From positions 1-42,226 of IMG/VR virus record IMGVR_UViG_3300005936_000005: a stretch of 42,226 nt of DNA, one strand, 5' to 3'. This DNA is from a virus. The stretch's first letter is position 1; each line of letters starts with the position of its first letter. The notes beneath the pieces were generated by a model. That model saw only the letters and a program-made list of their open reading frames with translations. It was not told the DNA's origin and did not search any database. This document shows positions 1 through 42,226 of the stretch, piece by piece. The translations under genes and the position numbers were made by a program.

Positions 1-110
1 AAGTTTTATTATTAAAGATATATTATGAAAAAGTTATTTATTATGTTACCTATTTTGTTTTGAGTGTTATTGTTTTCTTGATGTTGAACACAACAAGTTA
101 TTGAACAGGT
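1..110. repeat. Terminal direct repeat (copy 1), circular overlap
   Basis: These 110 bases are identical to the last 110 bases of the window (42117-42226). The repeat begins in the leader of the lipoprotein gene and runs 86 bases into its coding region. A repeat of assembly k-mer size that starts and ends inside a gene is typical of a circular contig whose ends were not trimmed, giving a unit of 42116 bases. A true short direct terminal repeat is also possible; the sequence alone cannot decide. Confidence 0.9.
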
Positions 111-510
111 TGTAGAATATGGTAATCCTATTGTTATTACAGAAGAACCAGTTTGAATAGTTATTAACGCACAATTTACACAAGACTTTATAGATAACTA
201 TCAATATGAAGATAGTGAATGATATATGTTTGCTATAAACATAGATTGATATTATTATAACACGTTTAGAAAAGATAATGGTTGAGTTGGTAATTCACGA
301 AAGCATTGATTGACTTGAGCCATACCTGCTTATAAATTTAAAGAATGAGTAGATTGGTATATACCATTCAAACAAATTAAGTTAGCTAATAAAGATACTT
401 ATTGATTTCACTATATGTATTTTGTGAAAAAAGATAGTTATGATATAAAAATTTCACCAGTAAAAGAATGAGTAGAAACACATCATATTAGTTATGAGTT
501 TTATTATTAA
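25..510 (+). CDS. Putative phage lipoprotein
   Basis: With UGA as Gly this is a 161-residue protein. It starts with two lysines, then a hydrophobic stretch (residues 4-17) and a lipobox-like F-S-G-C ending at Cys20. Gly13, Gly19 and Gly21 are all written TGA, so the lipoprotein signal exists only in the recoded reading. The mature part is rich in Tyr, Asp and Lys (for example G-Y-Y-Y and Y-M-Y-F) and is otherwise unrecognised. It is probably exported, lipidated at Cys20 and anchored on the outer face of the host membrane. Superinfection exclusion or an outer spanin role are both conceivable, but the sequence supports neither directly. Across the circular junction it follows the lysozyme region. 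The leader holds the TTTTATT motif common in this genome and no clear Shine-Dalgarno. Confidence 0.75.
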
Positions 511-565
511 CCTTTAAAAAATGGCAAGAGAAATAACTAAGACAGAAGCACCTATCAAAATCTAA

Positions 566-903
566 CAGCGATTAGCCACCGTAAGTGGCTTATATGTCAG
601 AGATAACCCTAAAGGTTTGACTTGACTAGAAAATAAATCCCACAAGTTTCCCTGTGGGAATATAGGGGAGCTTGGTATATGCCACCGTGATAGGTCGGCT
701 CCCCTGAATTAACTTAAAGATATATACATCTACATAGACCGCACCACGTTGGAGAACGATGCTAGCAAAAGCTCCATTAAAATCTGAGTATGGCATTAAG
801 AGTCAATTCATCTTTGTATGAACACTTGAAACCGATATGATAAGACGGGATTTATGTAGAGTTGTATATCCTTAGATAACCTTTTAACTTATAATATGTA
901 GAG
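566..903 (+). ncRNA. Structured non-coding region with several hairpins
   Basis: This 338-base gene-free stretch lies between the lipoprotein gene and the next small gene. It can fold into a row of hairpins: GCCAC/GTGGC at 575-589, AACC/GGTT at 605-617, CCCACA/TGTGGG at 639-658, and GGGGAGC/GCTCCCC at 665-704, the last enclosing two weaker stems. A longer-range pairing CTACATA/TATGTAG (730-736 with 853-859) encloses TGGAG/CTCCA. It is more GC-rich than the flanking genes, as structured RNA in an AT-rich genome often is. No tRNA cloverleaf, promoter or terminator was found. It could be a regulatory RNA, an origin or a packaging signal; no known family was recognised. Confidence 0.5.
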
Positions 904-1251
904 ATGAAAACAATCTGATTGAAAGACTTAAAACTAAAAGAAGTTGAAGAAGTAGTTGAAGAAGTAGTAGTTAAAGAAACTAAACGAAAACCATTATTTC
1001 TTTGAATGAAAGAGAAAGATATTTTTAGGATAGAATATTTTGATGATTATATTTCTTGATACAATAAAGATTGACTACAAACTTATTATGAAAACTCTGA
1101 TAAATATTGGAGTAAAAAAGAATATAAAGATTGACTACCAACTTATTATGAAGACTCTGATAGAGATTGGTTGAAAAGAGAGGACTGAAAAGAGATAGAA
1201 TATATAGATTGAAAATACTATATAGACTGAGAAGAAGCAGAACTAATATAA
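904..1251 (+). CDS. Small repeat protein, DG-L-x-TYYE repeats
   Basis: 115 residues with UGA as Gly. The N-terminal third is an acidic Glu/Val-rich run (E-E-V-V repeated). Residues about 55-100 hold two near-identical units of the type Y-x-D-G-L-x-T-Y-Y-E-x-S-D, each ending in Trp, followed by two shorter I-D-G-K/E units. The pattern resembles the D/N-G turn repeats of MORN or YwqK-like proteins, but the match is loose. The repeat-forming glycines are mostly TGA. It is the first gene of the accessory array. No function is assigned. Confidence 0.7.
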
Positions 1252-1275
1252 TATTTTACTAGATAACCTTAACCT

Positions 1276-1521
1276 ATGGAGAGAGAAGACCTTATAAAAA
1301 AATATCAAAAAATACATAACGCAAAAGAGATTGTATATCCAATTGAAATCATTTCTGACCTAGAGGAACTAACAGAAAAGCCTGTTGTTGATATTGAAGC
1401 TATAATGAAATTAAATGGTAGTTATGTTTATGTTGGTGATAGTAATTATATAAGACGACAACATATTATAGAAAATAAAATCAATGAGATTATAGAGAAG
1501 CACCTCACACAGAAAGACTAA
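1276..1521 (+). CDS. Small hypothetical protein ending KHLTQKD
   Basis: 81 residues, no TGA codons, acidic and helical in character (E-R-E-D-L-I-K-K, I-I-E-N-K-I-N-E-I-I-E-K). The last seven codons and the following intergenic DNA are almost identical to those of the gene ending at 3453 (43 bases, one mismatch). The 3' end therefore looks like a shared module spread by duplication or recombination. Start ATG 1276 lacks a clear Shine-Dalgarno. No family was recognised. Confidence 0.7.
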   Translation: MEREDLIKKYQKIHNAKEIVYPIEIISDLEELTEKPVVDIEAIMKLNGSYVYVGDSNYIRRQHIIENKINEIIEKHLTQKD

Positions 1522-1540
1522 ACAAGTAAAGACTATTTAT
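1498..1540 (+). repeat. Intergenic repeat with gene 3' end (copy 1)
   Basis: This 43-base segment encodes the KHLTQKD tail, its stop and the AAGTAAAGACTATTTAT spacer. It recurs at 3430-3472 with a single difference (A versus C after the stop). Shorter relatives of the spacer follow three other genes of the array (near 2461, 2950 and 3913). Confidence 0.85.
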
Positions 1541-1558
1541 TATATAAGATATTAGAGG

Positions 1559-1723
1559 ATGAAGAAACTAACAAAGAGAATAGAAATTGATTTAGAATTT
1601 GGAAGTGATTTTCAGAAAGAAGTATATGAGGGTATGATAGTTTTGGTTATACAATCTGTCCAATTAAGAATGGAGGAAACGCACAAAGGTAATTCAATAA
1701 AAGTTAAGATATTAGATAAATAA
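1559..1723 (+). CDS. Small hypothetical protein
   Basis: 54 residues, no TGA codons. It starts K-K-L-T-K-R-I-E-I-D-L-E-F, a beta-strand-like pattern, and continues with a hydrophobic helix (M-I-V-L-V-I-Q-S-V-Q-L-R-M-E-E). Its start lies 37 bases after the upstream stop, behind a copy of the array spacer. No family was recognised. Confidence 0.55.
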   Translation: MKKLTKRIEIDLEFGSDFQKEVYEGMIVLVIQSVQLRMEETHKGNSIKVKILDK

Positions 1724-1751
1724 TTTTTAATTACATAACAATATATAGAGT

Positions 1752-1913
1752 ATGATGAAGAAATGCGAATCTTGTTGAAAAATCTGAGACACAAAAGAAT
1801 TATGACAGGAGTGGCTATGTTTAGATTGTTATCTAATAAAATATAAAATCACTCAAATATTTCCACTAATATCAATCATAATTTTAATAGCTATATTTTT
1901 AATATATATATAA
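1752..1913 (+). CDS. Zinc-knuckle protein with C-terminal membrane helix
   Basis: 53 residues, readable only with UGA as sense. Two C-x-x-C pairs (Cys5/Cys8 and Cys23/Cys26) form a probable zinc ribbon; the first pair is C-E-S-C-G with Gly9 written TGA. A very hydrophobic Ile-rich segment from about residue 33 to the end should be a transmembrane helix. A cytoplasmic zinc ribbon tethered to the membrane is the simplest reading. The start could be either of two adjacent ATGs (1752 or 1755). Confidence 0.6.
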
Positions 1914-1952
1914 CCAAATTAACCTTTTTAACCAAATAAAACCTATAACAGT

Positions 1953-2213
1953 ATGAACCAAGTAATACAAGGAGAATGTTTAGAAGAGATGGACAAACTA
2001 ATAGAGCAGTGAATAAAAGTAGATGCTATTATTACAGACCCACCCTATTGAACTACTGCTTGTGCAGTAGCTAGTTATACTAAAGAATGTGAACATTATT
2101 TTGTAGATACTTTTTGAAATGTTTGAAGTATATGTTGTAGATGCTGAAAAAAACAATGACTTTTAGATATAAACCAACAACAGATGGAAACCAACAACAT
2201 ATGGAAACCATAG
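1953..2213 (+). pseudogene. Truncated DNA methyltransferase (N-terminal stub)
   Basis: 86 residues. The first 45 match the start of beta-type N4/N6 DNA methyltransferases: Q-G-E-C-L-E-E-M near the start, then D-A-I-I-T-D-P-P-Y-G-T-T-A, which holds the catalytic D-P-P-Y motif (Gly written TGA). Full enzymes run 200-300 residues and include the F-x-G-x-G SAM-binding motif. Here the protein diverges after T-T-A into a short Cys-rich tail (C-C-R-C-G) and stops. The SAM site is missing, so methylation is unlikely. It is best read as a decayed gene fused to unrelated coding sequence. A 27-residue stub at 2388 has a similar opening. Confidence 0.65.
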
Positions 2214-2293
2214 AGTGTTATCAATTAAATAAGGCAAAATTTAAGAGGACTAAGATAAGTAATATTTAGATTTTATATTATATTATCAGAAAG

Positions 2294-2380: not shown

Positions 2381-2387
2381 TATAGAA

Positions 2388-2490: not shown

Positions 2491-2499
2491 TAAATTATT

Positions 2500-4258: not shown

Positions 4259-5071
4259 ATGAGAATATGTCTATTTAGTTCCTATACAGAAGAAAGGATC
4301 ACAGATAACGTATTTTTATATATCAAAGAATTATCAAAACATTGTGAAAAGGTTGTGTTCATAACCAACCATAGAGATATAAACTCTATAGATCTAATTA
4401 GACTTATGAATATATGAGTACAATTAGAGTTTGTAGCTAACTGATGATATGATTTCGGTATGTTCAATAGTTTCTTATTAACAAACAAAGAGATCATAAA
4501 CAAATATGATCAGATACTATTATGTAACGATTCTATGTTGATCATAAACAAACTAGATAACGTATTTGAGTGGATAAACAACCAAACAGCTGAATACCTA
4601 TCACTAACAAATAGCTACGCAGACGAACAAGCGATAAACTCATACAACAACGCTATGGGTAGGATAGAGAGATGATATATACCGATAACCCAGAGTAAAT
4701 TCCAGGAATCGTATTTTCTTGTGTTATCATGAGAAGCTAAGAAGCTGTTAGAGCTACCAACTAACAGAATATACAGTATGAAAGAGAAGATAGTCTTAGA
4801 GTACGAATTGAGATGGTCTGAACTAGCTAAAACTAACTACACAACAGCAGTTATGTACGAGATAGACGACTACATAGCTAAAGGTGTATGTGTTAGGAAA
4901 GATGTATATACAGACGAGGTATGTAGATCATGATGATGTACGCTAAGTTACGAAGCAGCGCCAGAGTTGGTTAGGTGTTGATTACCACTAATGAAAAGAC
5001 ATTACCTAAACGAAGAAGCGTATAACAAAACTATAGAATTTTTAGTATCTAATCAATACAAATGCTTATAG
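4259..5071 (+). CDS. RgpF-like glycan synthesis protein
   Basis: 270 residues. It matches the rhamnan-synthesis F family: a Rossmann-like start (M-R-I-C-L-F-S-S-Y), the motif N-G-G-Y-D-F-G at residues 61-67 with both motif glycines after Asn as TGA, L-L-C-N-D-S at 87-92, and Q-E-S-Y-F-L-V-L later, the family's usual Q-S-Y-F-L-V-F. These proteins help assemble rhamnose-rich surface polysaccharides. It heads a three-gene cassette; its last ten bases overlap the next gene, so the products are probably co-translated. It may alter host surface glycans (blocking superinfection) or decorate virion parts. Family identity is fairly sure, substrate unknown. Confidence 0.75.
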
Positions 5072-6294
5072 AGAGACGTTATGAAGACCTATGTAAGAAG
5101 AAATCAGACATCAACGAGCATCTACCAACGCTCTACAATTTAGCTAACGAGTGTAAAACTATCGTAGAGTTAGGTACAAGGAACGCTACCAGTACAGCAG
5201 CTATATTAGCTGGTATGGAGAGAGACGCTAAATTCATCTCGTATGATATCAACGAATCAACAGAAGCTAGAGAGTTAGAGCAACTAGCTAAGAGATGTAA
5301 TAAAGATTATACGTTTATGATCGGTGACTCAAGAGGGGTGGATATAGGTAATGTTGATATGTTATTTATCGATACACTACATAACTGATCATTATTAAGA
5401 GAAGAACTAAAGAACATAGTAGGTAAAGTTAACAAATATATCTGTTTCCACGACACAACAACGTTCTGAGTTAAATGAGAGACAGAAGATGAGTGACTAT
5501 TAAAAGCTATAGACGAGTTCAAACAAACGTATCCAGAGCGAGATACTAGTATAACATATACCAACAATAACTGACTAACTATATTGATTAAAGATAACCC
5601 TATTATAGTATATACAGCTATCTATTGAGATTTCGAGACACTAAAGAAACAACCAAGACAGGATATAGATACAAAGTTCGTATGTTTTACAGATAGAGAT
5701 GATCTAGATGTAGAGGAATGAGCTAAACGAAATATCATCATAGATAAATCCAGACCTGAGTTGAACAACAGGATGAGAGCTAAATACTTCAGAACACACC
5801 CGTTCGAATACTTTGATGCCGATAAAGTTATATATATGGACGGTAGCGCTAGACTATTAAGAGAGGATTCGGTAAGATATTTCGCAGACCAGATCAAAGA
5901 ACACGATATATATAACATCCAACACCCAAACAGAGACAACATATACGATGAAGCTAAATTCTGTATGATGTTAACGGCAGATAACACATGACCAAGGTTC
6001 ACTAAATATATATGAATGCCACTAATAGAGCAGGTAGAACATTATAGATCACAATGACTACCAGACAACCATATATTCTGTGCTACATGATTATTATGAG
6101 TAAAAAGATCTAACAAAATCATAGACGCGCTAGATGAACGGTTCAACGAGAACAAAGAACGAACATACCAAGACCAACTATCATTCCCGTATGTTGTATG
6201 GAAGAACGATATAACTAATAAATACTTCGAACTACCATGAACGCTATGGAAGAACGAATATATAGTTTTTAATCCTCATAAGAAACCTGACTAA
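5062..6294 (+). CDS. Methyltransferase-glycosyltransferase fusion
   Basis: 410 residues in two domains. Residues about 1-185 are a class I SAM methyltransferase: V-E-L-G-T-R-N-A-T-S-T is the nucleotide-binding loop, followed by F-I-S-Y-D-I-N, M-I-G-D-S and D-M-L-F-I-D-T-L-H-N-G, typical of the Methyltransf_24 type that acts on sugars. Residues about 190-410 resemble the DUF616/TOD1 glycosyltransferase family: F-V-C-F-T-D-R, N-R-M-R-A-K-Y-F and V-I-Y-M-D-G-S-A-R-L, where the D-G-S segment is in the usual place of a GT-A metal site. A single chain that builds and methylates a sugar fits a glycan-capping role. The start overlaps the upstream gene by ten bases, and the stop overlaps the next start (TAATG). 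Confidence 0.75.
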
Positions 6295-7004
6295 TGGTTA
6301 AACTATCGTTATGTATTCCTACATATAACAACCCTAAATTGATAGAAGCTTCTATAGAGAACTTAGAAGATGTTTTAGAGTGAATAGATTACGAGATATT
6401 GGTACTTAATGACGGTACTGATGACGAGACACCACATATATGTGCTAACGCGATAGCTAACAACCAAAAGATAAACTATATCAAACCAATAGATAACCTA
6501 TGAGTAACTAAAGCGTGGAACGAGTTAGCTGATAGCGCTAGAGGAGAGTACATCAGTATAATAAACGACGACGTTGTATTCCCTAAATGGTTCTATCATA
6601 AGATCATCAAAGCTATAGATGAGGAGACAAGAGACGATATCATGATGTATAACCCTAGGTTCAGAGAAGAGAGAGAGGACTACCCTATACAATACTACGG
6701 TAACCATATATGTGGTCATTGCTTCACGTTCAGAGCTATACATAAAAATAAACTGTTCCCGATACCTGAAGTGTTCAAGATATTCGGTAACGATAACCGG
6801 TTATGACATAAGATCAACGATCTATGATACAACCAACGTATAGTACACGATGCTATAGCGTTCCATCTCAAATCACAGACAGTAAAGAACATACCTAACA
6901 CAGACGTACAACCATACAAAGATATGTGCGAAGAGATGTGATGGACTATACCTACAGTATACCCATTACCAGAAGATGATTTAGATTATAACAAAGTGAT
7001 ATAA
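6294..7004 (+). CDS. GT2-family glycosyltransferase
   Basis: 236 residues. The opening L-S-L-C-I-P-T-Y-N-N-P is the canonical start of GT-A family 2 enzymes. L-V-L-N-D-G-T-D-D-E-T follows about 30 residues later, then N-L-G-V-T-K-A-W-N and I-S-I-I-N-D-D-V-V-F, the last being the D-x-D-like metal and nucleotide-sugar site. The remainder (G-N-H-I-C-G-H-C-F-T-F-R) is the acceptor half. It begins in the stop codon of the fusion gene (TAATG), so translation is coupled. With its two neighbours it forms a small glycan-building operon. Confidence 0.85.
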
Positions 7005-7338: not shown

Positions 7339-7740
7339 ATGGCTAAAACTAAAACTAAAAGCTGACCTAAATGACCTATGAAGAAAGACGAAAACACTAT
7401 CAAAAAGTTATTGGACTGATTTCGTAGTGATTTTACTATATCAGAAGCTTGTTCTTGTGCTTGAATAACTACACAAACCTATTATAATCGGATAGAAAAA
7501 GATAAACAACTATTAGACGATATAACTAGTGCTAAAGCATATTGTTTCGCAATGGCTAAAAATAACGTAAGGAAATGATTGAATGAATGAGATAAAGAAT
7601 ATAGCCTTAAACGATTAAAGAATAGACAGAACAAGATATATAGCGAAAGGAGTGTAGATGAAATAGAATGAGAGGTGATACATACAATATCAGAAGAACA
7701 AAAGAAAGCTTTATTATCTAGACTAGCTTTAGATGAGTAA
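7339..7740 (+). CDS. terS: Terminase small subunit
   Basis: 133 residues. Position (overlapping the start of the large terminase) and layout fit a small terminase: a Lys/Gly-rich start, then a helix-turn-helix near residues 33-55 (F-T-I-S-E-A-C-S-C-A-G-I-T-T-Q-T-Y-Y-N-R-I). A helical core for oligomer formation and a C-terminal segment that would contact the large subunit follow. It recognises the packaging site on phage DNA. The leader CATTATTAACC lacks a strong Shine-Dalgarno. Conserved glycines in the linker and core are TGA. Confidence 0.75.
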
Positions 7741-9265
7741 ACCATATACCCATAAAGAGATACTATCAGACAAGAATCTAAGGATCGCTTATGGTGAGAT
7801 GGACTTCTTTTTTTGGTTTCAATATCATTATTGATTCAAAGCTAAGAAGTTCCATAAAGATTGGATGAGATCTATGCAAAGCAAAAACAACACATTTATA
7901 GAAGCGTTCAGAGCCAGCCGTAAAACAACGATAGCTAGATGATACGTATGTCGATGTATAGCGTATAAGAAAGAGCCGTCTATTATACGACAATCGTATG
8001 AAGACTCGTTAAGTTGAGAGTCGGTAAGAGAGATAGCTAAGATGTTGTTCAAACAAACAGTTGTTGATGATTATTGATATCTGTTCCCTATAGAGAGGAA
8101 AACGGAGGATCTATCTAAGAGATCGTTATCTAACTTCGAGAGTACATCATGAGTAAAAGTTACAGCTAGATCGTTATGACAAACCATTAGATGATCTAAT
8201 ACGTTTGATTTAAGTATAGGAATAAGCGCTAGACCTACATTATTGGTATTAGATGATATCGATGTAGTGAAGTCTGTTAATAGTGTAGATATTATCAATA
8301 ATAACGAGAAAAAGATATTATGAGAGACTATCCCTGCTTTGGATCCGTTAAGAAGGAAGATCATATTCTTAGGTAACACCATCAACGAGGATGGGATAGT
8401 ACCAAGATTCAGAAATAGATACAAAGATTCAAAACAATGGAATATATTTGAACAACCATTACTTGATGAGAAATGAAAGAACTTACGACCTGAGGTGTTT
8501 ACTGACGAAGTTATCGAGTGAATTAAAGCTGACGGTAAGACATCATTCAACCAGAACTACTTACTTATCCCTAGTACAGCAGGTAGCGGATGTTTTGTGA
8601 GAGCTTATTTCGATTATTTTCTACTATCACATTTCGAGGACCTAGATAGTATCCTCAAGAAACCAGACCTAAGGTGTGCTATATCTATAGATCCAGCGTT
8701 TAGTACCAACGCTAAGAGTGATGACGCTGTTGTTCTAGGTATAGGTGAACATAAGATATCTAAAGGTTATTATCTTATAGATTGATACGCTAACACATCA
8801 GCACCAAGTAAAACAATCCAAGCGGTGATAGTTATGTATAACGGTATGGTAGCTAACGGGTTCGCTCCATCATATATATCTGTAGAGAGTGTTACCATAA
8901 ACAAACAACAAACCCAATTCATAAAAGACCTAAAAGCTGAGCTATTAAGATACGAGATAAACATCCCAGTATACCTATACAAACCAAAGACGAACAAAGT
9001 GGCTAGGATCAAAGATACGTTAGAAGCTATCATGAGTATGCAATGATTAAAATTCAACCGTAATATATCAGATACAGCGTTCTTATCTAAAACAGAGACA
9101 CAATTCCTTGAATTCCCTAACGCTGATCATGACGATATTATCGATTGTATAGCTCAAGCTGTAGAGATGTTCAAATTTAGAGCAAAATCAACAACTTCAG
9201 CCCAACCAACTAAACCAACGAGGTACTTTAATCGTGTACTTTGAGAGTATGTCACGACAAAATAA
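7733..9265 (+). CDS. terL: Terminase large subunit
   Basis: 510 residues, the usual length. N-terminal packaging ATPase: F-R-A-S-R-K-T-T at residues 59-66 is a variant Walker A (R-x-x-R-K-T in place of G-x-G-K-S), and L-L-V-L-D-D-I-D around residues 171-177 is Walker B. C-terminal RNase H-fold nuclease: I-S-I-D-P-A-F with Asp320, then D-H-D-D-I-I-D around 465-471, the metal-binding acidic residues. It cuts concatemeric DNA and drives it into the prohead through the portal. The start overlaps terS by eight bases. TGA glycines run through both domains. Confidence 0.92.
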
Positions 9266-12796: not shown

Positions 12797-13252
12797 ATGG
12801 CAACAAGAACAACAGCTAAAGCTTACGCAGTTCTTAAAGATTGTAATTCACTTAACAAAGCATTAGATCATAGAGTAGCTGGTAACTCATTAGCGGCTAA
12901 CCCAGGTCTAGTACTTACAGAAACAAGTGGATTCGCAGAAGAAGCAGGAGCAGCAAGCAAATGTATAGGAGTATGTACTCAAACTAAAACTTTTGATTCT
13001 GATAACGAAACAGTAGCAAAAGACTTAGTAACTTATGAACCAGTATTCGCAGGTAAATCACGAAAGATGCCTATCGAAGGAGGTTCAGTAACACAAGCAG
13101 ATGTTGGTAACTATTTCGGTCTTACAGCTGCACAAGCGGTAGAAGGAACAGACTCAACAGCTACTAAAACAAGCTCACTTAACTGGAGATTAGTTGAATT
13201 CGTTTCAGCTACTAAAGGATTATTTGAAATTGATAACGATATCGTAGACTAA
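12797..13252 (+). CDS. Capsid decoration-like protein
   Basis: 151 residues from the ATG at 12797; an upstream in-frame ATG at 12779 lies in the leader and is less likely. Ala/Thr/Gly-rich with a beta-type pattern, including K-M-P-I-E-G-G-S-V-T-Q-A-D-V-G-N-Y-F, seen in small capsid-stabilising proteins encoded just before major capsid genes. It contains 12 glycines and no TGA. Codon use is clean (GGA and GGT), suggesting high expression. Decoration or head-stabilising role inferred from position. Confidence 0.6.
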   Translation: MATRTTAKAYAVLKDCNSLNKALDHRVAGNSLAANPGLVLTETSGFAEEAGAASKCIGVCTQTKTFDSDNETVAKDLVTYEPVFAGKSRKMPIEGGSVTQADVGNYFGLTAAQAVEGTDSTATKTSSLNWRLVEFVSATKGLFEIDNDIVD

Positions 13253-13297
13253 TAAGATAAAGGGTGCAAAAATTCTTTATTTACTAATTTTATTCAC

Positions 13298-14404
13298 ATG
13301 GCAGGAGAAGTTATCTTCAATAATGGGGTAACATACGCAACTGGAGCTTCAACAGTCTTCAACGCATATATTACTGAAACCATTAAACAATATAGAATGG
13401 AAGAAAGTGAAGATCTCAAAGCAAAAATGGGATTCACTACTACGACAGCATTAAACCCAAACCAAGTGTTCTCAACAGCATACGGTATCCAATCACTAGA
13501 TAATCTAGGGGAAGGAGAAACTAAGAAAGAGATGGACAGAGAGATCGGTCCTAAGAAAGGTTTCGCTATCAAAGAATTTGGTAACAAGATCACTACAACT
13601 CATCTATTTACAGAACGATCTAGAAAAGCTAAAGATCTTGCTGGAGCGCCTGAATCTATCCAAGCTGAATGTGTTTCTATATCAGAAAACGCTAAAGTAT
13701 TGATGCAAGGAGCAGAAAGAAGAGTTATGGAAGAGATGGTTAAACTATGGACACTAGGGTTCGCTAACACAGCGTCATACGGTCCAGGATCATTGACACC
13801 AAAAGGACAATTCTTGTTTGATGACGATCATAGCATATCTATGCTAGGAACAACTCAATCTAACTTGTTATCATCTGGTACTGGAGCGTTGACTTCAGCT
13901 AGACTTCAAGCTGGACTTGATCAAGCTAAAGGTATGTTGTTCGATAACGGACATAGAGTAGGTCAACCGAAAGGAGAAGCTTACAAAATCTTCGTATCAA
14001 CAGTAAACGCAGTAACAGCTAGACAAATCCTTAATACTGAAGGATCACAAGCAGGTATGTTCTCAGCTAGAGCTGATAGTGGTACTAACGTTCAATACAG
14101 CGGAAGTATTGTTAACCAATACAACTTCAAAGGTAACTTAGTAGAAGTAGTTGAACTCGATATCTTAGGTACTTACGATAACACAGGTACAGCTATCGGA
14201 ACAAACGATTACTGGTTTCTAATGAACGCTAGATATATAAGAGAAGCAAAAGCTTTGAGATATATCGATCTATACCCTATCAAAGTAAACACTTACTTTG
14301 TAGATGATACTGACAACGAAGTTGCAGACATCAGAATGGGATTAGCAGTAGATCATTACGGAGCAGAACTCGGATTGTTCGGTTCAGTAGGATCATCAGC
14401 ATAA
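13298..14404 (+). CDS. Major capsid protein
   Basis: 368 residues, the right size and place for an HK97-fold major capsid protein: after scaffold and decoration genes, before head-tail connectors. Passages such as A-E-R-R-V-M-E-E-M-V-K-L and Y-K-I-F-V-S-T-V-N-A-V are consistent with the long spine helix and beta-rich P domain, though no family was recognised with certainty. It contains about 37 glycines, none written TGA, in a genome where TGA is a common glycine codon, which points to selection for efficient decoding. A hairpin follows the stop. Confidence 0.8.
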   Translation: MAGEVIFNNGVTYATGASTVFNAYITETIKQYRMEESEDLKAKMGFTTTTALNPNQVFSTAYGIQSLDNLGEGETKKEMDREIGPKKGFAIKEFGNKITTTHLFTERSRKAKDLAGAPESIQAECVSISENAKVLMQGAERRVMEEMVKLWTLGFANTASYGPGSLTPKGQFLFDDDHSISMLGTTQSNLLSSGTGALTSARLQAGLDQAKGMLFDNGHRVGQPKGEAYKIFVSTVNAVTARQILNTEGSQAGMFSARADSGTNVQYSGSIVNQYNFKGNLVEVVELDILGTYDNTGTAIGTNDYWFLMNARYIREAKALRYIDLYPIKVNTYFVDDTDNEVADIRMGLAVDHYGAELGLFGSVGSSA

Positions 14405-17339: not shown

Positions 17340-19319
17340 ATGGGTTCACAATTAAGCAATATCAAATTCCAACTAACAAGCACATGTACAGCAACACAAG
17401 CGGCTGCTACCACTTTTACTGTAACTAACGACACTATAGAGGATAAAGTGATAACAGCAACCAACGCTAGCGTGTTGATAAGCTCTTTGAACGGTAAAGT
17501 CATCGAGAGGTTTGTTGGTACGTTCGCAGCTGGTACATTCACTATAACAAGTAGATGATTAACAAGCGCAGATTCAGAGACAGAAGATACAGATCTCCAG
17601 AAAGAACGAAGAGTGTGATCTATCGGTAAGATAGTGGCGTTCGCGTTCGATAACCTGGATGTAAGTAACGACTGAACATGACCAGAGATAAAATGAGATA
17701 TAATATTCAGCTGAGATAACACATTCAGCGGTATCGATACATTCACTAAAGGGTTGAACGTACCGGTATTCGCAGACTCTACAGCAAGAGACGCAACTAT
17801 AACAAGCCCAGCTAACGGTATGGAATGTTATCTAACAGATACATGAGAGTTTAATGATTATACAGCATGATCATGGGAATCAAGAACAAGCGGAAGTATA
17901 ACACCTAACGCTAGTGTAACTGTAGCAGGTAAAGTAGAACAAGCTACAGACGCTCAAGTATGAGCAAACACAGAGACAGGAGAGACATGAGCACCGTTGT
18001 TCATTAACCCTGATAGTGTAGTAAAGACATCATGATCAGTATATACACCAGCATATCTTACAGGTGGAAGTTCAGCTACAGCATGGTGAGCTACATGGAC
18101 ATGAGTAACTGATTGAGAATTCACTATAACAATAGATTGAACAGCAAGAGATATAACAGGATTAGATTTTAGTTCTACTACTGATGAAGATTGAATCGCT
18201 GCAGTAATCCAAACATGAATAAGAGATACAACAACTAGCACAGAAACATGTGTATGGAGTACAGATCATTTTATAATAACAAGTACAAATACAACAAGTT
18301 CTAGTGCAGTAACGGTAACAAGTGCTGTATGAGGTTGAACATGAACAGATATAAGTTGAGTATGAGCTACAGAATATATGGATTCGGAATCATGAGTATG
18401 AACAACTACATCAGCAGTAAGTGATACAACACAAGACGAGAATAAACTACCGGTATTAGACGCTACAGGTAAACTAGCTAGCTGATTTATGGATACGTAT
18501 GTAGAAGCTACGGTAGATGCAGCAAAGAAGTTTGGTTGAGATGGTACTGATTGAGCGGTAGACTGAACAGCAGATATAACATTAACAGGAACAAATAGTA
18601 CACTAATAACTAAAAATTACACATCATGGACAGCAGGAACAGCAGCTAGAACATTTAGTGTTGGTACATTGACAGGATGTGTGTTTATCATAAAAATACA
18701 ATGAGATTGTGATCTAACTAATTGGACTATAGATTGAATAGGTGGAATAGGAGCATATGACGCATGAGCAGCACCTAGTGGAGAATCAGCTAGTTGGATG
18801 CAATATGTTGTAGCAACAGCATGAGCTACAGGAGCATCTAGTGGATATGCTTGAGGATGATGAGCAGGGTTCACAGCAGATGGATCAACAGCATCAACAT
18901 GAGCTGCAGGATGAGTAAAACCAGCACGACAACAACTTATAGATATTATACCTAGCAGGAAATACTTATGATGCGCATGAGCAACAGGATGAAGTTCAGA
19001 AACAGTTAACACTCATAGTGTTACTGGATGAGGTTGATGAGCTATGATTATCTTCGAAGTGTGAGGTAACCTAACAGTAGATTCAGGGACAACAGATATA
19101 GATGTATCAGGATGAGCAGGATGAGTAGCGACAGTATGAGAAAATACTGGATGAGGTGGTTGAGGTGGTTGAGTGTTCGTTATGTTATATAACGGTACAT
19201 TAACAGGAACAACAACACCTACAGTATTAGGATGATTAGGTTGAGCTGGTTCCGTTAATCAATGATGAGCAGGATGAGTATGAGATTACTTAATAGAAAA
19301 GAACACAGTATTTGCATAG
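17340..19319 (+). CDS. Glycine-rich tail tip or fibre protein
   Basis: 659 residues. The middle has a beta-domain of the DUF3383-like kind: F-T-I-T-I-D-G-T-A-R-D-I-T-G-L-D-F, then C-V-W-S-T-D-H-F-I-I-T-S. The last 200 residues are a glycine-rich adhesin-like region with runs such as G-G-G-G-G-G-G and V-S-G-G-A-G-G-V. These are written with TGA mixed with GGT and GGA, which is strong evidence that TGA is glycine. Glycine-rich sandwiches of this kind form receptor-binding tips in other phages (T-even gp38 type, by analogy). Probably a host-recognition protein. Confidence 0.65.
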
Positions 19320-28840: not shown

Positions 28841-29500
28841 ATGGCATTAACAACAGACTTAGAAGCGTACTATAAACTAGATGGAAATAGCGATGATAGT
28901 GTTGGTAGTAATGATTGAACCGATTCTAATATTACTTATGTAACTTGAAAAATAAACAACTGTGCTGATTTTAACGGTAGTAGTTGAAAGATAACGATAG
29001 ATGAATCAAGTCTACCGTTATGATCTTCAGATAGAACAATATATACACGGATAAAATCAGACGCTAATAATTGAATAATTTGGTCTTATGGGCAACGAGG
29101 ATGAATACGTAAGATGATGTCGTTAGGTATATCAGCTACAGGGTATCTTACGGTATATAACTATTGAGCTGATTATACAACAACACAACTAATAACACCA
29201 TGAACACGATATTTTGTTCTAGTAACATATAATGGTACTGAAGAAGAGGTGTTTGTTGGTGACACTAGTATATGAACATATACGGTAGCGTTAGACACAA
29301 CAGCGTCAGTTAATTTCACTTTAGGTAACTTCCCTAATGTAGGAGCGGGTGGACGATATGATGGATTGATTGACGAAGTTTGAATAATGAGTAGAGTAGC
29401 AACATCTACAGAAATAACAGAGCTATACAACTCTTGAGATGGGTTACAATACCCGTTCACATCTACAGCTAACACCACAGCGTTCTTCCAATTATTCTAA
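28841..29500 (+). CDS. LamG-like lectin-fold tail protein
   Basis: 219 residues forming one concanavalin-A/LamG domain: A-Y-Y-K-L-D-G-N-S-D-D-S-V-G-S-N-D-G at the start, C-A-D-F-N-G-S-S-G-K-I-T-I next, and the family ending Y-D-G-L-I-D-E-V-G-I-M-S-R-V-A-T, then E-I-T-E-L-Y-N-S-G. Several family glycines (N-D-G, Y-N-S-G) are TGA. The fold binds carbohydrate or protein ligands, so a role in host-surface recognition is likely. Last gene of the tail block. Confidence 0.8.
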
Positions 29501-30591: not shown

Positions 30592-32601
30592 ATGGCAGAA
30601 GTAAAAGGTAGACAATTTAACGCCGAATGTAAAGAAGACAAAAGAGATTATCCGTTCACTGATTTCGCTGAGTGGGCTAGTGGTGACGAAGAGTCGGTAC
30701 GACCTAAAAGGAAGTTCAAAGTACAGAACCAAAAGAACACTCCAGCATGTTTTGAATGAAGTACTAAAGTGCTTATGTGAGATTATTCATATAAGAAAAT
30801 TATGGATATAAAAAAATGAGACTTTATATTAAATTCCTGATGAATTGATGAGGTGGTTGATGTTATAGAAAAACAAGCTGATAGTTTAGTAGATATAAAA
30901 ACATATAAGACTAGATGATGATTATGAAATATAAGATGTACAAAAGACCATACATTTTTTGTTTATGAAAATAATGAGATAATAGAGAAAAAGGCTGGAG
31001 ACATTAAAAGATGAAATTTTGTTATAGAAGCTATACAGGATATAAAAGAACAAGATGTAGAGAAAATAGATATACTTGATTATATATCACATGATATATA
31101 TATGACAGATGATTGATTATATTTATACAATAAACAATGAAACCAAAAATATGCTATACCAAGATATATAAACATAGATGATAGTTTTTTGAAATTATGT
31201 TGATATTATTTAGCTGAGTGAAATCTAATATATTCTTCATGAAATATAAATGGTATAATGTTCACATTTCATAGAAAAGAGAAAGAGTATCATGATGAGG
31301 TTATAGAATCATTAAAGAAAATATATAATTGAATATCATACTCTATATATGATAAATGAGATAATGCTACCACAATAGAAGTATATTCTAGTATTATATG
31401 ACATCTATTCAAAAATATATTCAATAGTTTATGTTTTAATAAAGATATACCTGATTTTATTTATAATTTACCATACAAAAAATTTAAGGTATTGTTATCA
31501 AGGTTGATATATTGAGATTGATATATAACTATAAGAAGTGCTTTAGAAATATGATTATCATTAACAGCAGATAAATTGATAAATAAAATAAAGAATAAAT
31601 TATATAATGAGTGAATTTGATGTTCTTATGAAATTAGAAATAACTCATCAAGTACACAAAAAAGAAAAGATATTTACTGATTATATTTTTATTGAAAAGA
31701 TGTTGTTGATTTACTTCCAGAAGAATCTGAATGAATAACACCAAGACCGCTAAGTAATAACCAAATACAATTCTTTATTAGAGATTGAAAAAAATATGTA
31801 GCTAAAAAAGTTGTATCAATAAATACTGAAGATATATACACACCCGTATACGACTTAAGTATTAAAGATAAACATGAATATATTGTTAATTGAATACTTG
31901 TACATAATTGTACTATGTATTCAGCTTGTCATATCAGTAACTGACAGAATATATTAGAAGATAAAAGGCTGTGAGTAAAAAGAGAACAAGTAGACCCGTT
32001 ATGACCATGGAACGAGTTCTGTGCCGAGAGAGGTAACTATAACAACTGAGCAGCTATCCAGACCATAGCGTTAAGACATAAAAAGAAAGGGTTTATTGAG
32101 GGGTTTGTTACTATATCTAGACAGACAGACGAGCTAACACAATCAAGACAGATGAAACAAGCGATAGATATGTGATGTTTCTTGTCTAGTGGATCAGCGT
32201 TCTGAGATCGAGCTACCATCAAAAAGACTGGTATGTTCTCTGAGAGGACTGACGGTGTGTTCACATGACACGCTTATTGTTTTGTTGATTATGTGTTAGA
32301 TGGTGATGGTGAAGTTGAATACTTCTGGGCTGTTAACTCATGGTGAGATACATGGGGGATACATAAAGGATATTTCAAAGTATACAGAAACCAGTTGATG
32401 AACCATTATAGTAAATTAGTATTCATAGATAAAGACGACTCAAGGAACTTCGCTAACTTCGAAGAGATCCAGAAAATCAAACAAGCGATAGCTATCCTAA
32501 GAGACGTATATCATAATACCAAGAAAGAAGAGGTGCAGAGATATTTAGAGAAGGTTCAATTTTGACAATCGTTTTCTGATATCTATTGAACTATTATATA
32601 G
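30592..32601 (+). CDS. Papain-like cysteine protease precursor with intein
   Basis: 669 residues as translated; about 282 after removal of the 387-residue intein (residues 53-439). The joined extein is a C1-type papain-like protease: Gln47 lies six residues before the catalytic Cys, as Gln19 and Cys25 do in papain. The Cys is in C-T-M-Y-S-A-C-H, the His in G-H-A-Y-C-F-V-D-Y, and the Asn in W-A-V-N-S-W-G-D-T-W-G, with both family glycines of that motif encoded. It follows small holin-like genes, so it may cleave peptide bonds in the host envelope at lysis, or process virion proteins. The uncut form cannot have an active site. Confidence 0.85.
30748..31908 (+). mobile_element. LAGLIDADG intein at the protease active site
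   Basis: 387 codons. Block A: C-F-E-G-S-T-K-V-L at the start. Block B: C-T-K-D-H with the conserved T-x-x-H. Two LAGLIDADG endonuclease motifs: C-G-Y-Y-L-A-E-G-N and L-L-S-R-L-I-Y-G-D-G-Y, acidic residues present, glycines mostly TGA. Blocks F and G: V-Y-D-L-S-I-K-D-K-H-E-Y, ending V-N-G-I-L-V-H-N before Cys+1. All splice-site residues (Cys1, His-Asn end, Cys+1) are present, so splicing and homing are probably active. Cys+1 is also the protease nucleophile. The intein is visibly more AT-rich (ATA, TTA, AAA codons) than the extein, suggesting later arrival. Confidence 0.92.
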
Positions 32602-32837: not shown

Positions 32838-33998
32838 ATGAAAACATTATTAACATTCCCATCAACATCATTAAAGAAAAACACTACACCAGCATGAGAT
32901 GTGAACTATACGATCTCTATCAACATCAAAGATTTACCTAGAGAGCTGAACGATTGGAGAGAGATCAACCCTAGATGAGTTAAGAACAATATAGTATACA
33001 AAGCGATAAAGAACTCGCTCAACGAAGACCCTACAGGGTTCTATAACAGGGACAGATGATTATCTATAATAGCTGACACTGTTACCTATAACACAGACAC
33101 CAAAACGGTTGGTGTGATTTTTACCGATCACGATAAACATGGTCTACTTGACTGAGGTCATACTTTCGAAGCTATCCAAGACTATCTAGATGAGGTTACA
33201 GAGACAGAAGATGATAGCATAAACATCTATATTAAAGTACAGATAATGATCTGAGTACCTAGTATAGATATAACAGCAGATATAGTTGAATCATTGAACA
33301 CATCAGCGCAGGTGAAACCAGAGAGTATCATCAACCTAAGAGAGTGATTCGATATCATCAAGACTTCGTTAGAGAGAGAAAGCTATTCTGATAGAATCCA
33401 TTACTCAGAATACGAGAGAGATCAGGACGGTAAAGTCAAAGATATCAGTATCACCGATATAGTGTCATACCTTATCTGTTTTAATATCAGTAAATACACA
33501 GACGAGACCCAACCAGTGAAAGCGTATTCATGAGGTAGGAGTATATTCAAAGAGTTCGAATCAACATCAGATGCGCTTAACTGACTAACACCGTTACTTA
33601 AAGATATCTTAGAGCTATATGATCTGATATATATCAACTACCCTAACCTATACGAAGGTAACTTCGGTAACCTAACATGAGTGAAAAGTCTCAGCAACTG
33701 ACGTAATATCATACTACCGTTTATATGATTAGAATCTAACTACGTTATCCCTAAAGGGTTTATCTATCCGATCCTAGCAGCGTTCAGAAACCTAGTTATC
33801 TTTGATGACAATAACAATGCTAAACGATTGATAAAACCTACAGAGATGTTCGGGCTACTATGACCTAAACTTATCAAGATAGTATGAACTAAAGCGTTAG
33901 AACATAAAAACCCTAACAAACTCGGTAAAGATAAAGATGTTTGGACTAAATGTTATGACGAGGTAGAAAAATATCTATTGAAGAATAGAATTTACTAG
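32838..33998 (+). CDS. AIPR-like (abortive infection family) protein
   Basis: 386 residues. Motifs match the AIPR family: L-P-R-E-L-N-D-W-R-E-I-N-P-R (residues 33-46), V-Y-K-A-I-K-N-S-L (53-61), F-Y-N-R-D-R-G-L-S-I-I-A (68-79) and H-G-L-L-D-G-G-H-T-F-E-A-I (101-113), the last with TGA for one of its glycines. Family members are known from bacterial abortive-infection loci; their activity is not settled. In a phage it may exclude rival phages or counter a host system. It is flanked by two promoter-driven structured RNAs, an arrangement like RNA-guided or RNA-antitoxin units. Family call moderate; role is inference. Confidence 0.6.
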
Positions 33999-34237: not shown

Positions 34238-35083
34238 ATGGCTAATAAAAGAATGTTTAGTAATCAAATTATCAATTCTGATGTATTTCTTGATATGAAC
34301 ATGTCAGCGCAAGCATTATATTTTCATCTAAATATGAACGCAGATGATGATGGATTTGTGTCACCTAGAAAAATTATGCGTATGTTGTGATCTCCAGACG
34401 ATGACATCAAATTATTGGTTATGAAATGATTTGTTTTACCTTTTGCTGACTGAGTTATTGTTATTACACATCGAAAAATAAACAACAACCAAATCAAGTT
34501 AGATAGATACACTCCAACGCTATATAAAGAGCATCTAAAAACCATGACCCAAAAAGAGAAAGTTTATAGTTTAGAACTAGTCGGCATACAAGATGGAGAC
34601 ATTTCGGAACCGAAGAGTAGAGTAGAGAAGAGTAGAATAGAGAAGAAAAGAGTAATAAATACCTCCAAAATAAATTTGGAGGAGTTTGAAAGATTTTGGA
34701 AACTTTTCCCACATACAAGGAAATGAAAAAAAGCAGAAGCTAAGAAATACTTTATAAAATTAAAAATTAAAGATGTATTAGAAGAAGTTAAGCTGCTGAC
34801 GCGAAAAATAAAGATAGGATTACAAGACGCATCTTTTGTTCCAGCGTGTGATAGATGGATAAGAGATTTTACTGAGACAGGTGAGGTAGTAAAAGAATCT
34901 ATCTTCCGTGAGATGATAATATACCTTAAATCTTTTGAGTGAGAGAAGAGAGGAGAGATATCACAGAAAATGAAACATGATTTCTGAGAAGAGTTTATTA
35001 AATGATTATGGAAGATGTATTGACAATCGAAGAAGATCCAAATGAGATTTACAGATGATAATGGGAGAGTAACTAAGTTTTAA
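34238..35083 (+). CDS. Phage replisome organiser (replication initiation)
   Basis: 281 residues. The N-terminal 100 match the common phage replisome-organiser domain: M-F-S-N-Q-I-I-N-S-D-V-F-L, M-S-A-Q-A-L-Y-F-H-L-N-M-N-A-D-D-D-G-F-V, then a winged-helix part (R-K-I-M-R-M-L-G-S-P-D-D-D-I). A basic linker of K-S-R-V-E-K-S-R-I-E-K type follows, then a helical C-terminal domain (F-E-R-F-W-K-L-F-P) like the part that contacts helicase or DNA. It would bind the origin and load the helicase encoded next. The origin is often inside or beside such genes; the GAGTAGAGAAG repeats near 34616-34645 are a candidate. Confidence 0.8.
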
Positions 35084-37520: not shown

Positions 37521-38117
37521 ATGCAGTACAAGAAGCATACACCAAAAACTACCAAAAAAAAACCTTCACAAAAAAAAATCACCATAAAAAAGAAAAAACT
37601 AACAAAGACTAAAATAAAAGAATGTTTACGATTTTGGTTTGGTAAATTATATATTAGGTTAAGGGATACAGATAAAGATTGATACTGATATTGTATAAGC
37701 TCATGAAAGAAGCTGTATTGGACTGAATGACAATGAGGTCATTACATCCCTAACGGCTCATGTAAGATACATACACGGAACGAAGACAACGTACACCTAC
37801 AATCTATGCAAGATAATGTATTGAAGAACGGTAATATATTATGGTATAGACCGGAGCTGATTGACAAGATAGGGATAGCTAAAGTAGAGTACTTCGAGAG
37901 TACCAAGAACGATACCAAACAACGGAAAGAGTGGGAGTATCTAGAGCTTATCAATAAATACAAACAGAAGGTATACGATATGATTCCAATAAAATCACCA
38001 AAAGTCCAGCAGGAGATACACGAATATATCAAAAAGAACGATAAAAAGATGTGGAGTGTTATGTATGCTGACCAAGAGATAATACCAAAAGATATCACAA
38101 AAGACATAAAAAACTAA
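37521..38117 (+). CDS. NinG-like recombination protein with lost zinc ligands
   Basis: 198 residues. After a Lys-rich start it follows the lambda NinG (Rap) pattern: W-F-G-K-L-Y-I-R-L-R-D (39-49), C-I-S-S-G-K-K (58-64), G-G-H-Y-I-P-N-G-S-C (72-81), N-E-D-N-V-H-L-Q-S (87-95), then G-N-I-L-W-Y-R-P-E-L-I and K-I-G-I-A-K-V-E-Y-F. NinG proteins act on recombination intermediates through a Cys/His zinc site. Here the usual C-I-S-C is C-I-S-S, and the usual H-L-Q-C-x-x-C is H-L-Q-S-M-Q-D, so three expected cysteines are replaced. Either metal binding is by other residues or the protein has lost it. Confidence 0.75.
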
Positions 38118-39469: not shown

Positions 39470-39517
39470 GAGCTTGATATTCTCCATAAAATGTCTAATT
39501 TTACCAACTAAATTACT

Positions 39518-39696: not shown

Positions 39697-40212
39697 ATGA
39701 AAGAAATAATAAAAGATATCTGAGATTTGATTATTCATATAGAAAACGACACAAGAAGAACCAAGCTACCAGAGATGTCTATGAAGCTTATAGAGCTAAC
39801 ATTCATATTAGCTGAATCTAAACGTGAAGTAGTGAGGATGAAATGATTATACGATCGTACATTTATCAAGAAAAAAGAGTCATCTAAAATATACCTAGAG
39901 AAGTTAGCTAAAGACAAATACGAAAAAGCAGTTAGTATAGCAGACGAAAAAGATAAGAAGAAGATAAAACTTGATAAGGTATCGAATATAGACGCAGATG
40001 ATTTCACTAAGCTAGAGATATTATCGTTCGTGGAAGAGTCTATGAAAAACGAGCCATGATTCAACACTCTCGTAACCAAACTAGAAGAACATCAGATGGT
40101 TATGGTATATCTAGATCCTATCATCAGGAGTTATACAGAATTGATCAACTCATGGAAACATGTAGACAAATCACCAAAAGAAAGTTTTAACCCTTGAACA
40201 CAAACATGATAG
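39697..40212 (+). CDS. Helical hypothetical protein
   Basis: 171 residues, helical and charged, with L-I-E-L-T-F-I-L-A-E-S-K-R-E-V-V-R-M-K-G-L-Y-D in the first half and a Lys/Asp-rich middle (A-D-E-K-D-K-K-K-I-K-L-D-K). The pattern recalls small phage proteins that act with recombination or replication factors. ATG follows the upstream TAG with no gap, and the stop overlaps the next start. Unrecognised. Confidence 0.6.
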
Positions 40213-40430
40213 ATTTTATAGAATATCTTGTCGATGAACTGAACTTCAGGAAAGTCACCAAGATTTGTTGAACAACAGAGATAACGTTAAGAAAATATAT
40301 CAATGGCTGAAACATCAGACCATCGTTAGAGAAAAAAATAGCTAGTAACATAGATGTATGGGTATCAACAGTATGAGATGAACGGTTAGATAGCTGTACA
40401 GACAAAACTTTTATGAAATTCCAAGACTAA
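40206..40430 (+). CDS. Small helix-turn-helix protein
   Basis: 74 residues. The central K-V-T-K-I-C-G-T-T-E-I-T-L-R-K-Y-I-N-G-G followed by R-P-S-L-E-K-K-I-A is a classical helix-turn-helix with the lambda-repressor spacing: a helix, T-x-I-T-L-R-K-Y as recognition helix, N-G-G turn, and closing helix. It may be a transcription regulator (Cro-like), the only one seen in the window. Glycines of the turn include TGA. Translation is coupled to the upstream gene by overlap. Confidence 0.65.
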
Positions 40431-40432
40431 CT

Positions 40433-40513
40433 ATGGATAGAGAACGAATATATATCGGATCATTGTATCTGATACTAGCTACACTAATAATCCACTCAAT
40501 AATAATTTTTTAA
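40433..40513 (+). CDS. Possible 26-residue membrane peptide
   Basis: M-D-R-E-R start, then a hydrophobic helix (L-Y-L-I-L-A-T-L-I-I-H-S-I-I-I-F). No TGA. It begins two bases after the HTH gene. Short but consistent with the many small membrane peptides of this genome. Confidence 0.4.
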   Translation: MDRERIYIGSLYLILATLIIHSIIIF

Positions 40514-40532
40514 TTTTTCACCACCCTTTGAA

Positions 40533-40841
40533 ATGATTTATGCGTTATGATTACTAATGATTATTTGTCCTTTATTTATTATCGCTATGGTGTGGATACC
40601 AGCGCTGAATAAAATATGGGCAAAGATTGTAGTTACCGCTATAACTATATACTGTGTTATTATGTTATGTGTAGCTGGTGTACAATACAACACACTAGAA
40701 GACACAGAATGAGCGTTAGATTACAGTATGGATACACAGATAGATTACCTACTTTGTGTAGAAGAAGCAAACACAACAGACGATTTCTGAGATTGTGTTA
40801 TAGATTACCTAGACCTATTAGAAGAAGTGTTTTGAGATTAG
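40533..40841 (+). CDS. Two-helix membrane protein with acidic tail
   Basis: 102 residues: two transmembrane helices (about 3-21 and 29-48), then an acidic extramembrane tail with two Cys (L-C-V-E-E-A, G-D-C-V-I-D) and many Asp/Glu. Probably sits in the host membrane with the tail outside or in the cytoplasm. Just upstream of the lysozyme genes, so a lysis or signalling role is possible; unrecognised. Confidence 0.6.
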
Positions 40842-40867
40842 TATTTTTTAACCTTTAATGAAATAAA

Positions 40868-41134
40868 ATGAAAAAAAGACTTAATATCCCTTTTATTGTT
40901 ATGTTGGTATTGTTTTGTTTAACTATTGTTTATATCATAACACAACAAACAACTGAAGTGGTAACAGATTACAAAGAGATGACAGCTTGACAGTTGTTGG
41001 ATATCAAGATTGATTATGATGTTGATATTGATATATTGACAGCAAAAAGAGCGATAATAATAAACGAGTACGAGATAAGGAGATGACTAAAAACTCCAAT
41101 AGAAGAGCTAGATGAAGTGATGGGTTTGAAATAG
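40868..41134 (+). CDS. Membrane-anchored protein upstream of lysozyme (spanin-like)
   Basis: 88 residues: basic start, one transmembrane helix (I-P-F-I-V-M-L-V-L-F-C-L-T-I-V-Y-I-I), then a mostly charged segment. The 3' end overlaps the lysozyme-like gene by 52 bases in another frame. An anchor plus charged helix next to a muralytic enzyme is reminiscent of an inner spanin, but it could simply be a secreted or anchored accessory protein. Confidence 0.55.
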
Positions 41135-41523
41135 ACCAAGTGCAAGTAGCACCAAGTCAGAAAACTGTCAATGTTATAGAAGAAGGTAAAAAGATTACCC
41201 ACTTATGATATAAGATTGATGACATAAGACAACAATACGTACAATACGCTTACGATGTTTGAGGGATAGATTTAGTGTTGTTGATGGAATGCGAGAACGG
41301 GCAACGGAATCCTGCAACTAAAGGCGACTGAGGAGTAGCTCATGGGTTCTGTCAGATAAACACCAACTATCATACACTACCAACAAACTTCTTTGAATGG
41401 AAATCACAGATAGAGTTCTGTAATAAGAAGATGGTAGAGTGAACACCATTCTATTGACCTAGCAGGAATATAGATTGACAGAAATGTTATGAATATGTAA
41501 ATGATAGATTTAAGATAGATTAA
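41083..41523 (+). CDS. Lysozyme-like muralytic enzyme
   Basis: 146 residues. L-L-M-E-C-E-N-G-Q-R-N-P-A-T-K-G-D-G-G-V followed by A-H-G-F-C-Q-I-N matches the lytic transglycosylase/goose-type lysozyme core: Glu69 or Glu71 is the catalytic acid (the E-x-G pattern favours Glu71), and G-x-x-Q-I-N closes the site. The G-D-G-G run includes TGA. It cleaves peptidoglycan glycan strands. No signal peptide, so it needs a holin or the ejected tail to reach its substrate. ATG 41083 directly follows AAGGAG, unusually close, and overlaps the upstream gene by 52 bases. Confidence 0.75.
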
Positions 41524-41547
41524 CCTTTAACATTAACCTAAACAACC

Positions 41548-41772
41548 ATGAACAAATTCACCAGACCAACAGAAGACACAATCCAAAAGCTGACTGATGA
41601 TGATATAGTTATGCACTGAAGTATCTTGGATAAACTAATATCTTGAGAACTAACACACCCAGCTTTCATCAAAGAGCAAGATAGATGGACTAAAGAGTTC
41701 AGATCGAGACTCAACCTGATAGTGAACGACAGGAAATCTGAGCTAGCTAAGAACCTAAAGAAGAACAAATAG
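41548..41772 (+). CDS. Small helical hypothetical protein
   Basis: 74 residues, helical, two TGA glycines, basic C-terminus (K-N-L-K-K-N-K). Reads like a small coiled-coil accessory protein (W-T-K-E-F-R-S-R-L-N-L-I-V-N-D-R-K-S). Unrecognised. Confidence 0.6.
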
Positions 41773-41794
41773 ATTTTACTTTATATATAGAGTT

Positions 41795-42097
41795 ATGAAA
41801 ACACTAGAGCAGTTGAAAGAAAAGCGATTACAATTCGCAAGAGCTAATCCAAAGCATACAGATTTAATTAGAGAATTTATATCTGACATAAATAAACAAC
41901 TCCAAGAAGCACCAAAGGTAGAAGAAGATGTGGTAGAGAAAATTAAAGAACAATACACTAAAGATATAAAATTATTGAGAGAGTTATACAAACAAGAACT
42001 TGATGCAATATCATTAAAAAGTTTAGATGAGTTTTTAATACGAGCAAACAATAGACCAAGACATCTCACTCCAGCAGATACAAGTGATAGCGAGTAG
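41795..42097 (+). CDS. Charged helical hypothetical protein
   Basis: 100 residues, no TGA, helical and charged (T-L-E-Q-L-K-E-K-R-L-Q-F-A-R, then V-V-E-K-I-K-E-Q-Y-T-K-D-I). The polar end (T-P-A-D-T-S-D-S-E) is probably disordered. It is the last gene before the circular junction and precedes the lipoprotein gene by 43 bases. Unrecognised. Confidence 0.6.
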   Translation: MKTLEQLKEKRLQFARANPKHTDLIREFISDINKQLQEAPKVEEDVVEKIKEQYTKDIKLLRELYKQELDAISLKSLDEFLIRANNRPRHLTPADTSDSE

Positions 42098-42116
42098 AAT
42101 AGAAGCCACCACAAAT

Positions 42117-42226
42117 AAGTTTTATTATTAAAGATATATTATGAAAAAGTTATTTATTATGTTACCTATTTTGTTTTGAGTGTTATTGTTTTCTTGATGT
42201 TGAACACAACAAGTTATTGAACAGGT
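42117..42226. repeat. Terminal direct repeat (copy 2), circular overlap
   Basis: Exact second copy of bases 1-110. It holds the leader and first 28 codons plus two bases of the lipoprotein gene, starting with ATG at 42141. It follows directly on the gene ending at 42097, so across the junction the lipoprotein gene is simply the next gene of that transcription unit. Confidence 0.9.

Follow-up and report, generated by a model that had tools for sequence, protein, structure and literature searches.

For Absconditabacteria, Codetta predicted a genetic code in which UGA is read as glycine and both CGA and CGG are read as tryptophan (PMC8629427). Code-25 phages of Gracilibacteria and Absconditabacteria are already known (PMC10746230), and two phages were predicted to share the AGG-to-methionine reassignment of their Bacilli hosts (PMC8629427). 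Here we consider IMG/VR record IMGVR_UViG_3300005936_000005, analyzed over its whole length and referred to below as the window (42,226 bases; the ends show no repeats). The window very probably belongs to a tailed phage with a host in the Absconditabacterales (SR1), a phage that is written wholly in the code of its host, with UGA as glycine, CGA and CGG as tryptophan, and UAA and UAG as stops, and that relies on host decoding. More broadly, it is quite likely that Absconditabacterales phages whose terminases fall into two or more deeply divergent lineages have taken up the CGA and CGG reassignment to tryptophan on top of UGA as glycine, using CGA about as much as TGG and carrying no transfer RNA (tRNA) for it, so that the code tracks the host. 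The meanings of the three codons are assigned by homology, and growth of the phage in an Absconditabacterales host is what we infer.

The original prediction held that UGA is read as glycine throughout. With TGA open, forward-strand frames of at least 100 amino acids total 37.8 kb in 43 open reading frames (ORFs), the longest of 1324 amino acids, compared with 6.9 kb in 17 ORFs and a longest frame of 382 amino acids when the standard code is applied. If TAG or TAA is opened instead, the total is only 8.8 kb or 12.0 kb, so only the opening of TGA restores the gene set. The 50 called genes, all on the forward strand, hold 437 in-frame TGA and 424 GGN codons and end in TAA (33 genes) or TAG (17 genes). 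The genes on which the codon assignments mainly rest are the following.

1 to 42226, forward strand: whole virus record, with TGA as Gly, CGA and CGG as Trp, and TAA and TAG as stops, from ORF coverage, codon counts and profile tests
7799 to 9265, forward strand: terminase large subunit (TerL), with 13 TGA and 3 CGA (phrog_38)
28841 to 29500, forward strand: LamG-domain protein (PF13385), which tests all three codons independently
34238 to 35083, forward strand: DnaD-like helicase loader, with 8 TGA and 2 CGA (phrog_8489)
37521 to 38117, forward strand: NinG/Rap-like junction endonuclease, with 2 CGG and 1 CGA (PF05766)
41083 to 41523, forward strand: lysozyme-like protein, a gene that related phages share

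To assign residues, profiles were built from standard-code homologues of TerL, the loader, and NinG; TGA, CGA, and CGG were masked, and all 20 residues were tried for each. Glycine was the best reading of TGA (463.3 bits), with alanine second (447.9 bits) and tryptophan outside the best eight. The LamG domain scored 39.9 bits with TGA as glycine and 21.2 bits with TGA as tryptophan, CGA and CGG being read as arginine in both cases. We also used 37 related IMG/VR contigs (L143–L179), whose TerL is 61–94% identical to that of a contig in an Absconditabacterales genome. Glycine is the majority partner at 1688 of 2986 TGA positions in these contigs, with alanine next at 108. UGA as glycine was thus borne out by ORF coverage, profile scoring, the LamG score, and the columns of related phages. 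The motif glycines at which TGA had been noticed are likewise all present, with TGA (g) in FS-g-C, N-g-g-YDFG, Y-g-D-g-Y, NSW-g-DTWG, and GD-g-G and in the glycine-rich protein at 17340.

The evidence on CGA extends the reassignment to a second codon. The window contains 83 TGG, 62 CGA, and 13 CGG codons; tryptophan would amount to 6.7 per 1000 codons from TGG alone and to about 12.7 with CGA and CGG included. In the three-gene profile test, CGA scored best as tryptophan (457.0 bits), followed by tyrosine (442.6 bits), while arginine gave 436.9 bits. Replacing arginine with tryptophan at CGA raised TerL from 205.2 to 220.1 bits (+14.9) and the loader from 185.7 to 194.7 bits (+9.0), and doing so at CGA and CGG together raised NinG from 77.7 to 87.3 bits (phrog_171, +9.6) and a TOD1 profile from 16.8 to 23.5 bits; the score of a GT2 profile did not change. 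All three CGA codons of TerL fall on tryptophan or aromatic columns of relatives. The most informative CGA and CGG codons are as follows.

7952 to 7954, forward strand: CGA at TerL residue 52; most relatives of the host class have TGG there, and related phages have Tyr, CGA, or TGG
7988 to 7990, forward strand: CGA at TerL residue 64; CGA 16, TGG 12, CGG 6, and His 4 in related phages
8486 to 8488, forward strand: CGA in TerL K-N-L-[CGA]-P-E, the Trp of the L-W-P-E motif; 6 of 7 phages with the standard code have Trp there
34472 to 34474, forward strand: first CGA of the loader, at an invariant Trp; TGG in 15 of 16 homologues
37776, forward strand: CGG of the NinG/Rap-like endonuclease, in a Phe/Tyr column
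41305, forward strand: CGG at residue 75 of the lysozyme-like protein, in N-G-Q-[CGG]-N-P; TGG 3, CGA 2, and Tyr 1 in related phages

When other phages carrying CGA at the loader tryptophan were sought by motif, none was found, which says little because the motif in the window is spaced differently. In the 37 related contigs, where codon columns were tallied on non-overlapping ORFs, the majority residue at CGA was tryptophan in 171 columns and arginine in 6. The controls behaved as standard codons, with TGG at 263 tryptophan and 0 arginine columns, AGA at 1670 arginine and 0 tryptophan columns, and CGT at 246 arginine and 0 tryptophan columns. In the three-gene profile test, which is small and local, tryptophan was not the best-scoring reading of TGG, owing to weak conservation of the TGG columns in it. 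The earlier statement that TGG remains tryptophan is clear from the related phages, but TGG covers only about half of the tryptophan-type codons in the window.

The meaning of CGG is the part of the assignment most open to another reading, namely that UGA is glycine and CGA tryptophan while CGG is ambiguous or has some other meaning. CGG occurs only 13 times in the window, and the three-gene profile test, which reached two CGG codons only, gave 89.0 bits for phenylalanine, 88.1 for tryptophan, 87.1 for tyrosine, and 79.7 for arginine; by itself this local test says only that the residue is aromatic. However, reading CGG alone as tryptophan raised LamG from 39.9 to 47.1 bits, a gain of 7.2 bits (CGA alone gave 44.3 bits, and both codons together 51.4 bits, +11.5), and raised NinG against PF05766 from 67.7 to 73.1 bits, a gain of 5.4 bits. 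The lysozyme column is mostly TGG or CGA in relatives, the majority residue at CGG columns of the 37 related contigs was tryptophan in 27 cases and arginine in none, and SR1 has a tryptophan-like tRNA-CCG. We therefore regard a separate meaning for CGG as improbable.

Less probable still, and very unlikely on the evidence above, is plain NCBI code 25, in which only UGA is reassigned, CGA and CGG remain arginine, and the host could be any member of the Gracilibacteria or Absconditabacteria. This is the tabulated code of the group, and arginine is indeed the meaning of CGA in some genomes with recoded TGA. Yet CGA lies on conserved tryptophan columns in TerL and the loader, arginine is the worse reading in most profiles, and related phages exchange CGA with TGG rather than with AGA. 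The label "genetic code 25" given in the original prediction is consequently right for UGA but incomplete, because both CGA and CGG are read as tryptophan and the arginine of the NCBI table fails.

The same codon helps to narrow the host. A pattern with TGA at the conserved glycine of the EF-Tu/IF2 G1 motif retrieved 43 loci from the genome collection, most of which carry the label Gracilibacteria, Absconditabacteria, SR1, or Patescibacteria; it was through TerL relatives in the class of these loci that the 37 related contigs were reached. Across host loci, CGA columns were tryptophan 32 times and arginine twice for Absconditabacterales, compared with 0 and 9 for other TGA-recoded genomes. The proposed host, Absconditabacteria/SR1 or Gracilibacteria, was thus the right group but too broad, since CGA as tryptophan points to Absconditabacterales. 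The window shares of TGA (0.49) and of CGA plus CGG (0.48) lie inside the range of Absconditabacterales hosts. A heavier use of CGA in phages than in their hosts was considered and dropped, as host loci span about 0.2 to 0.8 of tryptophan codons. In one pair, the CGA plus CGG share of tryptophan-type codons was 0.24 and 0.28 for a phage contig (L124–L125, G044:C50) and its host bin (G044), and codon choice may match within such pairs.

Host decoding would proceed as follows. One SR1 genome has a tRNA-UCA with the glycine elements G1:C72, C2:G71, G3:C70, and U73 (elements as in PMC8629427), a tRNA-UCG with G1:U72 and G73, and a tRNA-CCG with A1:U72 and G73. A20 is absent from both of the latter, as it is from the SR1 tRNA-Trp(CCA), and the genome also has tRNA-Arg with anticodons GCG, UCU, and CCU. 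Acceptor ends were taken by eye to have seven pairs, one fewer than in the ARAGORN drawings; the labels that this program gives, which derive from the anticodon alone, are selenocysteine for tRNA-UCA and arginine for tRNA-UCG and tRNA-CCG. No release factor 2 (RF2) scored above the cut-off in 49 Absconditabacterales genomes, and 46 of the 49 have a single class-I release factor, which scores far better as RF1. The host would thus supply tRNA-Gly(UCA) together with tRNA-UCG and tRNA-CCG, presumably charged with tryptophan, and would lack RF2, so that the phage would need no translation genes of its own. A tRNA scan of the window found none, and no Rfam families were found in it; dependence on host translation is the simplest reading of the missing tRNAs. 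It is hardly credible that the phage instead brings its own decoding (suppressor tRNAs or a release factor) to a standard-code host and switches code late in infection: such phages are known (discussed in PMC10746230), but the window has no tRNA, although the scan for translation functions covered only some of its genes and an end of the record may be missing. In 41 related loci, too, no tRNA has the anticodon UCA, UCG, or CCG; genes of all classes use TGA, and the rare change of CGA and CGG fits one bacterial order.

A TerL tree puts the window on a deep branch within a group of recoded phages (support 94/91) but outside the clade of the 37 contigs, so the code appears to depend more on the host than on the lineage of the phage; the exact place of the window is unsure because its end branch is long. 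TerS, TerL, NinG, and the lysozyme-like gene are common to the window and L143–L179, and the contig used as reference for these could be a co-binned phage. Direct IMG/VR searches with the TerL and the capsid gene of the window found no relatives, and an alignment of TerL from distant phages was dropped as a search query for being too diverse. A second set of phages (L180–L183), relatives of a TerL in genome G235, is TGA-recoded and nearly free of CGA and CGG (2.0 and 2.5 per 10,000 codons), which would fit hosts in which neither codon means tryptophan.

Several points weigh against a phage of Absconditabacterales written in this code. The few CGG codons and the inability of the local test to separate tryptophan from phenylalanine or tyrosine are among them, as is the long, deep branch of the window in the TerL tree. 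Reading CGA and CGG as tryptophan slightly lowered two profile scores, CHAP from 35.3 to 33.0 bits and papain from 29.0 to 28.3 bits. Few columns from other TGA-recoded hosts were available for contrast, and most of them come from a single locus. Finally, the clustered regularly interspaced short palindromic repeat (CRISPR) spacer link that had been suggested was not found when 40 of the 42.2 kb was compared with 49 Absconditabacterales genomes; the best short matches were AT-rich or of low complexity and without a repeat array, and this negative is weak evidence.

Among the hallmark genes of tailed phages (Caudoviricetes), the window carries TerS, TerL, a holin, and a weak portal match, with a capsid gene recognized by position only. 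The remaining features are listed below.

7339 to 7740, forward strand: terminase small subunit (TerS), with 7 TGA (phrog_4102; homologues in L155–L157)
12797 to 14404, forward strand: two genes of the capsid region, probably for a decoration protein and the major capsid protein, as judged from gene order and the low-TGA head proteins of relatives rather than from direct homology
30592 to 32601, forward strand: papain-like protease with a LAGLIDADG-type intein inside, with 37 TGA (PF00112, PF14890)

The statement that TGA interrupts nearly all long genes holds broadly; a few genes are free of it, above all the two in the capsid region, where TGA makes up 0 of 49 glycine codons compared with 437 of 812 elsewhere in the window (p = 1.9e-16). 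ATA is also low there (4 of 23 isoleucine codons), and CGA is still used. In related phages, the genes lowest in TGA are mostly major head proteins, for example with 4 of 36 glycine codons against 66% overall. The low-TGA capsid genes of relatives, with TGA at about 0.1 vs 0.66, are these; like those of the window, they avoid ATA but not CGA for tryptophan.

L155, 6081 to 7172
L158, 11401 to 12474
L159, 16251 to 17324
L173, 12297 to 13427

This avoidance has the look of selection on codon choice in the protein made in the largest amount. That it is a general trait of highly expressed host genes was unsupported, as host EF-Tu is at 53% TGA (from few genes, chosen for having a TGA). Structure prediction for the capsid gene from its sequence alone gave no usable model (predicted local distance difference test score, pLDDT, of 31).

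Other genes deserve brief mention. Adjoining the terminase, a sugar-transfer cluster (4259–7004) comprises a GT2 gene, a TOD1-like gene with a methyltransferase domain, and the N-G-G-Y-D-F-G protein. At 1989–2213, a short frame contains a DPPYG motif and weakly matches an N6/N4 DNA methylase; it resembles a truncated methylase. The protein at 32838–33998 has an AIPR domain (Pfam, 85 bits), from a family linked to phage resistance via abortive infection and here borne by a phage. A 761-amino-acid TerL frame in another contig (L102, G041:C187) also matches the intein region of the window protease, which suggests spread of the intein among recoded phages.

Altered codes have been suggested to protect against viruses, but here phages have adapted to all three codons that their hosts reassigned, so protection of this kind would not last long. 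With NCBI table 25, about half of the tryptophan codons of these phages are misread (75 of 158 in the window), which lowers profile scores and hurts structure prediction and host assignment. Absconditabacterales would merit a translation table of their own, and CGA as tryptophan would offer a marker, readable from sequence alone, that tells their phages from those of other TGA-recoded hosts.

A literature search found no report of phages that read CGA or CGG as tryptophan; most subscription papers and all preprints lay outside its scope, and priority is unproven. The host code described for Absconditabacteria (PMC8629427) agrees with the window in all three codon meanings, in low G+C, and in UAA and UAG stops, but it was described for bacterial genomes, whereas here it is found in phages, including IMG/VR relatives. 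The known code-25 phages (PMC10746230) share with the window the dense in-frame TGA and genes that make sense only with TGA as glycine; the main text of that report covers TGA only, without CGA or arginine codons, and the window adds two sense codons. The phages with AGG as methionine (PMC8629427) likewise follow a sense-codon change of their hosts without a tRNA gene for it. There, however, the codon, residue, and host are different, and the window combines the reassignment of a stop codon with that of two sense codons.

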